A stretch of 64,000 nucleotides of DNA, from assembly GCA_944320015.1 (NCBI GenBank), contig CALUFO010000001.1, forward strand, positions 186,001 to 250,000. Direction: 5' to 3'. A program made the position numbers and the translations under genes. This DNA comes from an uncultured Barnesiella sp. Its GTDB lineage: Bacteria > Bacteroidota > Bacteroidia > Bacteroidales > Barnesiellaceae. Shown piece after piece: positions 41,089 to 47,308 of this stretch (its first letter is position 1; every line of letters starts with the position of its first letter). The notes beneath the pieces were generated by a model, which was given only the letters and a program-made list of their open reading frames with translations, was not told the origin of the DNA and searched no databases.

Positions 41089-41263
41089 ACCCGCTCGGGA
41101 AGACCGGTTATGGCATGATGAGACAAAATAACAACATTTAGGTATGGCGGGGCGCTTTTTCCCTTAAAAAGGGGATTGCATAGCCGCCGGGAAAGATGTT
41201 CCTTTGTCGTGTCGAAACAATGGCGGCCCTATTTTGCAAAAGATAAGATGCGGCTCGGCATAG

Positions 41264-41294
41264 GACAAAACGAAAACTTTGTTTTCATTTGTCT
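41264..41294. promoter_or_regulatory. Operator-like palindrome at the hemerythrin promoter
   Basis: GAAAAC-TTT-GTTTTC is perfect and is extended by GACAAA/TTTGTC on the outside with one unpaired base (41264-41294). It covers the likely -33 region of the promoter at 41312-41319, a position suited to an activator or repressor. Confidence 0.55.
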
Positions 41295-41311
41295 CTGCGC
41301 TCACCGTTTAC

Positions 41312-41319
41312 TATCTTTG
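41312..41319 (+). promoter_or_regulatory. Promoter -7 box (TATCTTTG) of the hemerythrin operon
   Basis: Consensus TAnnTTTG, 31 bp before the ATG at 41350. Confidence 0.6.
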
Positions 41320-41349: not shown

Positions 41350-42045
41350 ATGTATATCCACGGGACCTATCATAGAGATACTCGAATGAGCGATTTGGTG
41401 TGCGACAATTACCCTGTATTGTTGGTCATGAGCCGCTTTGGCATTGCGCTGGGCTTCGGCGACAAAAGCATTGGCGAGGTTTGCGAGGAGACCGGGGTAC
41501 ATGTGGGCACATTCCTTGCGGTAGTCAATCTGTTGCTGGACGAGGGCGAGGCCGATGATTATAAAGACGATATATCGATAGGAGCCTTGTTGGATTATCT
41601 GCACAATTCACACGATTATTTTCTCAATTTCAGGTTGCCGGCGATTCGTCGTAACCTGTTGGGGGCGATAGATTGTGGCAAGAGAGATATTTCGATTGTC
41701 ATACTCCGGTTTTTCGACGAGTATGTAGCCGAGGTGCAGAAACACATGCGTTACGAGGAGACTACCGTTTTCCCCTATGTAAACTCGTTGTTGCGCGGCG
41801 AGTGTCCCGAGATGTACAGCATCGATGTGTTCCGCCGGCGGCACGACCAAGTGGAAGCCAAGTTGACCGAATTGAAAAATATTCTCATCAAGTATTATCC
41901 CGCATCGGGGAGTAATGAGCTGAATGGCGTGCTGTTCGACATTTTCACTTGCGAACAAGATTTGGCTTCGCACAATTATATAGAAGATTATCTTTTCATT
42001 CCGGCGATTCAGACGTTGGAAAGTAAAATAAAGAGAGCGAAATGA
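41350..42045 (+). CDS. Hemerythrin-domain protein, ScdA/YtfE-like
   Basis: 231 residues. The N-terminal region (about 13-65, MSDLVCDNYPVLLVMSRFGI) resembles the ScdA/YtfE N-domain. The hemerythrin four-helix bundle follows, with candidate di-iron ligands His85 and His88, His132 with Glu136-Glu137 (HMRYEE), His165 and His208 with Glu212 (ASHNYIEDYLF). Related proteins repair Fe-S clusters after nitric oxide or oxygen damage, or sense those gases. The gene overlaps the downstream LuxR-type regulator by 4 bp, so the two are translationally coupled and likely act together. The palindrome over its promoter suggests redox- or NO-dependent control. Confidence 0.88.
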   Translation: MYIHGTYHRDTRMSDLVCDNYPVLLVMSRFGIALGFGDKSIGEVCEETGVHVGTFLAVVNLLLDEGEADDYKDDISIGALLDYLHNSHDYFLNFRLPAIRRNLLGAIDCGKRDISIVILRFFDEYVAEVQKHMRYEETTVFPYVNSLLRGECPEMYSIDVFRRRHDQVEAKLTELKNILIKYYPASGSNELNGVLFDIFTCEQDLASHNYIEDYLFIPAIQTLESKIKRAK

Positions 42046-42659
42046 ATCCAGTTATAAAAGTGGTCATAGCAGAACCGTCGTTGATTATCCGCAAAGGGTT
42101 GCTTTCGGTGTTGAAAAAATTATCGACCCTCCATATCGAAACTGCCGAAGTGGCCGACATGCAACAACTCATGACTTCGCTCTCGTGGCACCGCCCCGAT
42201 ATCCTCATTGTCAATCCGGGGGTAGCGGGAGTCGTTTCGCTCGCGCAGATAAAAAAGGGGAGCGAAGGAGCGGTTCCGAAATGCGTCGCATTGCAAAATT
42301 CGCTGGTCGATCTTTCTATCTTGAAGATGTATGACGAGGTTATCTCGGTGTACGATTCGGCCGAACAGATTAAAGAGAAATTCGACAAGTTGATATATGA
42401 CACCACCGAGAAGGAGGTGCGGCAAGAACCGCTCACCGAGCGGGAAAAAGAGATTATCGTCGGAGTGGTCAAGGGCATGACCAATAAACAGATTGCCGAG
42501 AAACTGTGCCTGTCGGCGCATACGGTCATAACTCATCGGCGGAATATCGCCGGGAAGTTGCAAATACATAGCCCCGCAGGGTTGACGATTTATGCCATAG
42601 TCAACAAGTTTGTGGACATCGACGATGTGAAGGATTCTATTTATAACCGTGAGGAGTGA
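42042..42659 (+). CDS. LuxR/NarL-type regulator with degenerate receiver domain
   Basis: 205 residues. The N-terminal receiver-like fold (5-120) lacks the key residues. The phosphoacceptor position reads PDILIVNPG (Asn58 in place of Asp). The paired acidic residues after strand 1 are reduced to Ala-Glu (VVIAEPS). No conserved Lys is evident after strand 5. The C-terminal GerE/LuxR helix-turn-helix is intact (LTEREKEIIVGVVKGMTNKQ, then IAEKLCLSAHTVITHRRNI, about 131-170). It should bind DNA without His-Asp phosphotransfer. The hemerythrin protein encoded just upstream with a 4-bp overlap is the obvious partner. Confidence 0.9.
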   Translation: MNPVIKVVIAEPSLIIRKGLLSVLKKLSTLHIETAEVADMQQLMTSLSWHRPDILIVNPGVAGVVSLAQIKKGSEGAVPKCVALQNSLVDLSILKMYDEVISVYDSAEQIKEKFDKLIYDTTEKEVRQEPLTEREKEIIVGVVKGMTNKQIAEKLCLSAHTVITHRRNIAGKLQIHSPAGLTIYAIVNKFVDIDDVKDSIYNREE

Positions 42660-45581: not shown

Positions 45582-46304
45582 TTATATATTGGGAAAAATA
45601 TGCCCGGAATTTCGGGAGATAAGAGTGTCATATATGTGATTGGCGTAAAATCTTCCTACGGGGAGGGATATTTCTTGCCCGATGAGTTTTACCCGCTTTT
45701 TGGAAAATATTTCGATCTTTTCGATAGGTACGATGTAGGAACGGTGAATGCGGAGGAAGTTGCTCTCGGGCAACAACTCTTGAATCGTTTTCATGTTGGT
45801 GCGGGATAAAATGTATCCGCCGCTGCTTTTGAATATTTTGGTATAGTTTTCCATCGCTTCGATATACAATATATCGCTCATGGATACGGTCACATTGTTG
45901 TAATCTTGTTTGACGACAATACTGTCGGTCGATTTTTCTCGCTGGGACTCGATGCGTCGCAGAGCCTTTTCGACCGCTTTTTCGAATCGTTCGTAGGCAA
46001 AGGGTTTGTGCAAGAAATCGACGGCGTCGAGTTCAAACCCGTTGAGCGCATATTGAGCATGGGCGGTAGTGAATATGAAGCAACATTCGTCGGGCAGGGC
46101 ATGGGCGATGTCCAATCCGCTGATACTGTTCATCTCTATATCGAGAAAAACCAAATCGGGCTTGTTGCGCCGAATTTCTTCCAGTCCTACACGAGGCTCG
46201 CTGAACGTGGTCAAATCGAGTCCGCCGAATCGCTCGCAGAATTGTGAGATAACCAGCAGAGCCAGAGGCTCGTCGTCGATAGCTATACAGGTGGTTCTTT
46301 TCAT
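45582..46304 (-). CDS. LytTR-family response regulator
   Basis: 240 residues. The receiver is intact: Asp10-Asp11, phosphoacceptor Asp55 (LVFLDIEMNSISG) and the Lys in FLHKPFAYERF. The C-terminal LytTR DNA-binding domain (about 135-235) has YIEAMENYTKIF and FLRIHRSYIVPIEKIE. It is translated from an ATG overlapping the histidine kinase gene by 4 bp and is its cognate partner. The pair is divergent from the RND efflux operon, a plausible target. LytTR regulators bind paired direct repeats; none was picked out with confidence. Confidence 0.94.
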   Translation of the reverse strand: MKRTTCIAIDDEPLALLVISQFCERFGGLDLTTFSEPRVGLEEIRRNKPDLVFLDIEMNSISGLDIAHALPDECCFIFTTAHAQYALNGFELDAVDFLHKPFAYERFEKAVEKALRRIESQREKSTDSIVVKQDYNNVTVSMSDILYIEAMENYTKIFKSSGGYILSRTNMKTIQELLPESNFLRIHRSYIVPIEKIEIFSKKRVKLIGQEISLPVGRFYANHIYDTLISRNSGHIFPNI

Positions 46305-47308
46305 GATAATTGAATGGTAAGTCGGGTTTTGAATTGTCGTCCCTCTTCGACGGTTGTTAAAGAGAATCGTTTGGGATAGAGCAGCTCCAGCCGTTTGCGG
46401 CAGTTCTCGATACCGATGGCCGGGGTGTTGTCGCGTTTTTCTTTCATGATGGTGTTCTCGGTTTCAAAAAGCAGTTGCCCGTTTTTCACGACGATTTTGA
46501 TGACAATAGTGCAATCGATCTCCGATGAGGTCCCATACTTGAATGCATTCTCTACGAAAGTGATAAGAATCATAGGGGGGATTTGAGCATGCTCGTCGTC
46601 GGTTTGCGTAAAGAAATCGATATGGGTGTGTTTGTTCAGCCGCAGCGATTGCAAATCGACATATTGCCGAATGTAGTCTATTTCGTTGCAGATGGGTATG
46701 GTGTCGAGGGTGGTTTGGGTGTACATATATTTCAGAATGTTGGAAAATTGGATAAAGGCCGATTCGGTCTTGTCCGATTTGGTGAGGACCAATCCGTAGA
46801 GCGCATTCAAGGTGTTGAAGAGAAAATGAGGGTTAATCTGAGCCTTGTAGAGCGCCAGCTCGGCTTTGTTCTTCTCGGCTTCGATTTCTTGTTTCGAGAG
46901 TATTTGTCTGAATAGTTCTACTGTCAGCTCGATAGATAGGCTGAACCCAGTGACTACGAGAAAGAAGAACCACACACTCAGTGTCCTCATGTGCTGGCGT
47001 ATACCCCAGTCGAGATTGGTGGCCGAGATAATCTCTTTGGGGATAGGTATTTGACTGATACCCCATGTGACCAGCAGCAACACGGCGATGAGCAGGACCA
47101 CCTGACTGTATTTGCGTTTCATGATAAGCGCGGGAATATTGGCCTTACGGTAAGTGAAGTAGAGCAGATAGACATAGGCGATGAGGGTGAGCATGAAACC
47201 GGTATGGTAGATAATCCACTTCTCGACCGGGACCAACATGATGATGAGCGGCAATATGACGAGGCAGAAGAGCAGGTCGATGTATATGCCTATGCGGGTG
47301 TGTTTCAT
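46301..47308 (-). CDS. LytS/YehU-type sensor histidine kinase
   Basis: 335 residues. Four predicted membrane helices (about 10-30, 35-55, 68-86 and 110-135) form the sensor. The His_kinase domain has AQINPHFLFNTLNAL with phosphorylated His161, and the ATP-binding region includes IPPMILITFVENAFKYG and AIGIENCRKRLELLYP. It has no extracellular sensor domain, so it probably reads a signal in or at the membrane. Operon with the LytTR regulator (4-bp overlap). The TATCTTTG promoter at 47370-47377 fits a leader of about 57 nt containing a CGCTTG/CAAGCG hairpin. Confidence 0.94.
   Translation of the reverse strand: MKHTRIGIYIDLLFCLVILPLIIMLVPVEKWIIYHTGFMLTLIAYVYLLYFTYRKANIPALIMKRKYSQVVLLIAVLLLVTWGISQIPIPKEIISATNLDWGIRQHMRTLSVWFFFLVVTGFSLSIELTVELFRQILSKQEIEAEKNKAELALYKAQINPHFLFNTLNALYGLVLTKSDKTESAFIQFSNILKYMYTQTTLDTIPICNEIDYIRQYVDLQSLRLNKHTHIDFFTQTDDEHAQIPPMILITFVENAFKYGTSSEIDCTIVIKIVVKNGQLLFETENTIMKEKRDNTPAIGIENCRKRLELLYPKRFSLTTVEEGRQFKTRLTIQLS

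Follow-up and report, generated by a model that had tools for sequence, protein, structure and literature searches.

A hemerythrin-LuxR gene pair of Bacteroidales with a dead receiver domain, a probable split one-component regulator

CdhR of P. gingivalis is a studied regulator of haem uptake and community behavior, reportedly the subject of Chawla 2010 and Boutrin 2023, and the standing question of what it senses is now directly testable. Its gene belongs to a hemerythrin-CdhR operon that is known as PG1236-PG1237 in P. gingivalis and BT_0519-BT_0520 in B. thetaiotaomicron, with a fused counterpart (PIN17_RS10465) in P. intermedia; the operon, including the fused form, has been published as a hemerythrin-domain regulator (PMC10434189). 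As far as the references in PMC10434189 and PMC10101095 indicate, CdhR has been under study in P. gingivalis since 2009-2010. The operon is part of the low-iron stimulon, rising 16-20-fold in B. thetaiotaomicron and ~7-fold in P. gingivalis (PMC10434189), and CdhR turns on the hmu genes for haem uptake and is itself lower under microaerobic conditions (PMC10101095). A role in NO stress is indicated by the title of a 2023 paper cited in PMC11728304. Published accounts call CdhR a response regulator or a LuxR-family protein, whereas our analysis finds a receiver that is dead throughout the family. The accessible CdhR literature does not state the dead receiver, the loss of the receiver on fusion, or descent from the RIC (YtfE/ScdA) Fe-S repair proteins; subscription papers lay outside this search, and we claim no priority. 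New in this analysis are the finding that the receiver is dead across the family and was lost repeatedly on fusion, the descent of the hemerythrin protein from RIC, and a paralogous clade without metal ligands.

Hemerythrin domains also serve as inputs in less closely related proteins. In FBXL5, the output is controlled by a hemerythrin domain whose di-iron site is labile and reacts with O2. The hemerythrin domains of plant BRUTUS are described similarly, with a reduced di-iron site that is labile and O2-reactive (PMC12022348). The likeness of both to the locus described here lies in a hemerythrin di-iron site that controls an output and is a functional analogy only, since their output is ubiquitin ligation and here it would be DNA binding. 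In V. cholerae, the hemerythrin domain of Bhr-DGC (VC1216) regulates a diguanylate cyclase, as described in PMC10101095. A bacterial hemerythrin acting as a redox input domain is the common trait, but in Bhr-DGC it stands in cis with a cyclase and not with a transcription regulator.

The locus lies in DNA of an uncultured Barnesiella sp. (order Bacteroidales), of which we analyzed one stretch of 64,000 nucleotides, called the window. Its features are as follows:

41288..41319, + strand: likely promoter of the two-gene unit, with a -33 element TTTG at 41288-41291 and a -7 element TATCTTTG at 41312-41319, spacing 20 bp (read from sequence)
41350..42045, + strand: hemerythrin ORF, 231 aa, encoding a RIC/YtfE-related protein with a ScdA-N-like four-helix domain (aa ~8-69) and a hemerythrin bundle (aa ~77-230)
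42042..42659, + strand: LuxR/NarL-type regulator ORF, 205 aa
42042..42045, + strand: 4-bp gene overlap ATGA, comprising the regulator start and the hemerythrin stop (read from sequence)
42042..42410, + strand: pseudo-receiver, aa 1-123, with a receiver fold and E11-P12, N58, and V103
42429..42599, + strand: LuxR/NarL-type (GerE) helix-turn-helix (HTH), aa ~130-186; Pfam GerE, 60.8 bits at aa 130-185

The two genes share their gene order, domain types, and bacterial order with the hemerythrin-CdhR operon, and a fused form occurs in both cases. That operon is recognized by a hemerythrin gene followed by a LuxR-type regulator gene, or by a fusion of the two, in Bacteroidales, and this is the arrangement found here. 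The window pair is of the hemerythrin-CdhR kind, with its orthology to PG1236-37/BT_0519-20 based on published description and not on sequence alignment, and the gene pair itself is already known. An overlap of 4 bp between the two genes had been proposed and is exact, with ATGA common to 41350..42045 and 42042..42659. Near relatives (L003, L004, and L005) have the same -4 overlap, and the hemerythrin start ATG at 41350 is kept in near relatives. The segment 41288..41319 is the likely promoter of the two-gene unit, to judge from its match to the -33 TTTG/-7 consensus, which is the established Bacteroides type, and a CTATCTTTG block is found upstream of the orthologous pair in L140 and L141. 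The flanks of the pair, as read from their sequences, are not thematically linked to it: a predicted amidase lies upstream on the opposite strand and a HAD-type hydrolase downstream.

Conservation of the gene pair in relatives was a check that the original prediction had invited, and the pair does recur, in ~70% of sampled Bacteroidales genomes. A hemerythrin homologue is present in 107 of 148 genomes of the order, a count that takes in a few true RICs. The loci read from these genomes comprise 107 pairs and 7 fusions, and the regulator adjoins the hemerythrin gene in nearly all of them. A further set of 80 named loci, which covers members of Bacteroides, Phocaeicola, and Parabacteroides and contains no P. 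gingivalis or B. thetaiotaomicron sequence, comprises 64 pairs, 15 fusions, and 1 contig end. Gene order is reversed at two loci, and in genome G049 the two partners are separated. We saw no recurrent functional neighbors of the pair across the order: the gene clusters that came up were confined to particular lineages or were artefacts of the reverse strand, and targeted searches by sequence pattern yielded no FeoB and only two flavodoxin-like ORFs. The Barnesiella genome itself has only two LuxR-type regulators, both adjoining hemerythrin-like genes; four weaker GerE matches in this genome look, on reading, like ECF sigma factors. Genomes labeled as sharing the phylum but not the class of the window (G161, G303, G225, G244, G194, and G182; loci L257-L262) likewise carry the pair, in one case as a fusion (L259), which suggests horizontal transfer or a wider, older spread. 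At locus L305 (97-1579), a family regulator that has no hemerythrin neighbor lies no more than 8 bp after an ORF resembling TonB-dependent receptors, which hints that its target may be the uptake of iron or haem; the same genome has its hemerythrin gene at another place, unpaired (L125).

The regulator combines a receiver fold with a GerE HTH, as do the NarL/LuxR-class response regulators VraR, LiaR, NarL, and ChrA. Unlike them, the window family has no phosphorylation site and no kinase nearby, and its receiver is dispensable in fusions. The Pfam Response_reg match reaches 14.2 bits, under the cut-off of 30.2, and a sub-cut-off match to MSP7_C was taken as noise. The predicted structure nevertheless has a beta/alpha receiver fold (pLDDT 85.2; Z 15.0 to 6ekg over 113 residues, 2.1 A), and because structure prediction still gives this fold, the N-terminus is, as modeled, a pseudo-receiver and not some other domain. 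The Pfam register bears out the proposed Asn58 at the phosphoacceptor site and the proposed lack of the Lys, with Val103 in a column where 18 of 20 control regulators have Lys. The acidic pair, also said to be missing, is only half gone: its second position is Pro12, but the first is Glu11 and still acidic. The acidic pair, Asp, and Lys expected of a two-component response regulator are thus replaced by E11-P12, N58, and V103.

This state extends well beyond the window. Among 171 partner receivers (107 order partners plus those of the named loci), none has the full set of two acidic residues, Asp, and Lys, compared with 15 of 20 LuxR-type regulators of the same order that have no hemerythrin neighbor. 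Of the five controls that lack the full set, one (L305) belongs to this family, another is missing its N-terminal end, and two are something other than plain response regulators. Column 58 in the 107 order partners reads N in 64, S in 16, D in 12, and E in 5, with others in the remainder, so that Asn58 is the commonest residue in relatives but gives way to S, D, or E elsewhere. Homologues with an intact Asp, which had been named as counterevidence, do exist (16 of the 171), yet the rest of the active site is absent in all 16. Judged by these residues, the dead receiver is a family-wide property, and because it and the gene pairing both recur across the order, comparative sequence evidence indicates that their association is not chance. 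In the 107 partners the HTH is almost invariant (e.g., E135, G145, S158, T161, H165, and R166). The receiver is the least conserved part, with E11/P12/S13, N58/P59, and D105 as recurrent residues.

A nearby cognate kinase, the other proposed counterevidence, is almost never seen: an ORF with a histidine-kinase N-box lies within ~4 kb at only 3 of 170 flanked loci. None adjoins the window pair, although a distant kinase would escape a search of flanks. On the minus strand of the window, at 45582-47308, a LytS-type histidine kinase gene is overlapped by that of a LytTR-type response regulator whose Asp seems intact. This kinase (46301-47308) is the nearest in the window and adjoins its own LytTR regulator; the system is complete in itself and is not likely to be a partner of the LuxR gene.

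Fusions provide the strongest evidence that the DNA-binding domain takes its input from the hemerythrin and can do without the receiver in a single chain. Twenty-three distinct ORFs (293-359 aa) each encode one chain in which the LuxR HTH follows directly on the hemerythrin region. Most of them match the regulator profile only from position ~93-119 on, that is, past the receiver, and a few give longer but weak partial regulator alignments. Pfam searches of four fusions found GerE in 4/4, Hemerythrin in 3/4 (one below the cut-off), and Response_reg in 0/4. Parsimony on a 166-sequence tree gives 8 changes in the fused state, at least 6 of them forced by well-supported branches; the count was made without an inferred root or direction and signifies several independent events, not an exact number of gains. 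In Alistipes, most loci of the named set are fused, and such natural single-chain versions offer an easy protein for biochemistry.

The hemerythrin protein shares its two-domain layout, fold, and six ligands with the RIC/YtfE/ScdA Fe-S repair proteins. Pfam Hemerythrin matches aa 81-220 of its 231 residues at 44.2 bits (cut-off 25.3). The ligand residues H88, H132, E136, H165, H208, and E212 correspond to H84, H129, E133, H160, H204, and E208 of YtfE (PMC9268430), giving the four His and two Glu of RIC proteins, and 191 of 205 distinct members have the whole HHEHHE set, made up of 170 of the 182 separate proteins and 21 of the 23 fused ones. An alignment of the family with true RICs of the same order by hhalign gave 99.2% across 222 columns. 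In an AlphaFold2 model (pLDDT 88.6), YtfE and ScdA are the best PDB matches, and the predicted fold has both the ScdA-N domain and the hemerythrin bundle of RIC. The bundle scores Z 15.2 to ScdA 9j47 (151 residues, 3.1 A) and Z 14.8 to YtfE, aa 3-69 score Z 9.6 to 2k5e (67 residues, 2.9 A), corresponding to the small helical domain of 2k5e/2k53, and Foldseek aligned 220 columns of YtfE to the model.

The protein departs from RIC in other respects. Its score against the RIC model TIGR03652 (FeS_repair_RIC) is 47.9 bits, compared with a cut-off of 204.7; relatives among the matches listed reach 58-85 bits and true RICs of the same order 213-252 bits. Most bacterial RICs carry DfCCgG in the N-terminal domain, which we used as a mark of membership. 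The ScdA-N-like domain of the window protein has no CC motif: where true RICs read GIDFCCGG, it reads GIALGFGDK, and the motif is likewise absent in 17 aligned relatives. Four family members had been flagged as RIC-like by a CC anywhere in the N-terminus, but this was dropped, as in L009, the one inspected, the CC lies outside the motif position. CC-motif true RICs, found in 19 of 119 order genomes, form a separate branch of the tree with support of 100, and 0 of 19 has the LuxR-type neighbor to which the window family is coupled. True RIC genes of Bacteroidales often adjoin a short Rrf2-like regulator gene (L129, L132, L133, L134, L135, L139, L227, L230, and others). Because the profile alignment, fold, and ligands match, while the TIGR03652 score, the loss of DfCCgG, and the separate clade do not, the window hemerythrin protein is RIC-derived, yet the name RIC is not apt.

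A second hemerythrin-like and LuxR pair occurs in the same genome outside the window (L120, 3409-4678, minus strand; ~302147-303416 of G000:C1). In it, N-R-D-P-H-R replaces H-H-E-H-H-E, and the iron ligands are lost. About 11 such ligand-less separate members and one fusion (L130) are present among the loci, most of them in one supported clade, with L126 and L128 apart. The ligand-less version is probably a metal-free sensor that has kept its regulator. Because this clade retains the pairing, metal does not seem indispensable to the coupling.

We propose that the two genes would form a split one-component regulator. The first protein, from the RIC/YtfE di-iron family, would have become a dedicated sensor with the loss of the DfCCgG cysteines, holding two irons in its hemerythrin bundle. 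A change in the state of the hemerythrin (iron loading, redox, or ligand) would alter its contact with the LuxR/NarL-type protein, whose receiver fold, incapable of phosphorylation, would persist only as a docking or dimerization module. The contact would set DNA binding and so the expression of target genes. We consider it probable, by a comfortable measure, that the di-iron protein is the sensory subunit and acts by contact, because the partner has no phosphorylation site, kinase-like ORFs occur at only 3 of 170 loci, and receiver-less fusions arose repeatedly; metal binding, contact, and the direction of control are what we infer. Several points limit this model. Fusion indicates that the parts are workable in one chain, and separate proteins need not touch. 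Most members retain a receiver fold, which may have another role, such as binding a small ligand. CdhR is reported to act on DNA in partner-free studies, and the hemerythrin may merely modulate it.

Three other explanations compete with this one. The hemerythrin protein could be a working RIC-type repair or NO-scavenging protein, with the regulator controlling its operon and other stress genes and no contact between the two proteins. Its RIC ancestry and its intact six di-iron ligands agree with that idea, as does the frequent Rrf2-like gene, a regulator of another type, beside true Bacteroidales RICs. We hold it improbable, however, since it leaves unexplained the repeated hemerythrin-HTH fusions that lack a receiver, the clade-wide loss of DfCCgG, and a ligand-less clade that keeps its pairing. 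Less probable again is control of the regulator through its pseudo-receiver by a small ligand, for which c-di-GMP has been suggested in the case of CdhR (PMC10101095), or by some other modification, with the hemerythrin as a secondary modulator. The kept fold and the recurrent residues E11/P12/S13, N58/P59, and D105 speak for this view, but no other part of the partner varies as much as the receiver, which is missing in the fusions (a few with longer, weak partial alignments), and the window regulator shows no VpsT-type W[FLM][TS]R motif. It seems very improbable that the regulator is an ordinary response regulator phosphorylated elsewhere on the protein by a distant kinase. Kinase and regulator genes can be unlinked, and 16 of the 171 partners keep Asp58; against this, the whole active site is found in none of the 171, those with Asp58 included, and with Pro in place of the second acidic residue a Mg2+ ligand is gone. 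Moreover, kinases are almost never nearby, and the nearest one in the window adjoins its own regulator.

The preferred reading, a di-iron sensory subunit acting by contact, leaves a choice of signal. The original prediction had described an O2/NO switch in which the di-iron protein controls its DNA-binding partner without phosphotransfer. Control by a route other than phosphotransfer is well supported by inference (0/171, rare kinases, and receiver-less fusions); the O2/NO signal remains a hypothesis, and published expression favors iron. Our tentative first choice is that the pair senses iron availability by way of a labile di-iron site, one that is also O2-responsive. Iron is favored because of the low-iron induction of the operon, the activation of hmu by CdhR together with its microaerobic fall, and the TonB-dependent-receptor-like neighbor at L305. 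The second choice, O2 or redox alone, is doubtful; O2 as a signal fits hemerythrin chemistry in general and the labile reduced site of plant BRUTUS. NO comes third and is somewhat more doubtful still, with the cited 2023 paper on CdhR in NO stress in its favor.

On the broadest reading, which we favor only slightly over its negation, the ancestor of the clade recruited an Fe-S repair protein, on a single occasion, as a di-iron sensor that operates a LuxR-type HTH by direct contact, and phosphorylation was displaced. Several independent fusions to the HTH would have followed, and the paralogous clade would have lost its metal and would respond to another cue. In most Bacteroidales, a hemerythrin-based switch for iron, O2, or NO, with CdhR as its output half, would then stand in place of a two-component system. 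If the partner does hold iron and the receiver is dead family-wide, those looking for the CdhR signal should turn to the di-iron site in the neighboring protein and away from kinases, quorum signals, and c-di-GMP. With the pair present in most sampled gut Bacteroidales, it could serve these anaerobes quite generally for gauging iron, O2, or NO when the gut is inflamed.

Two smaller features of the locus are recorded here. A search for an operator footprint upstream of the pair gave blocks alignable in near relatives only and no clear palindrome. At 41121-41182 of the window, upstream blocks near ACAAAATAACAACATTTAGGTATGG and AAAAAGGGGATTGCA are kept in several close relatives and may be an operator or the end of another transcript. 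In the hemerythrin protein, Cys45 (codon 45, window 41482-41484) is kept in 127 of 131 aligned members despite the loss of the neighboring CC motif. True RICs have the equivalent Cys within their EAC motif, and the residue may act as a redox-active thiol.
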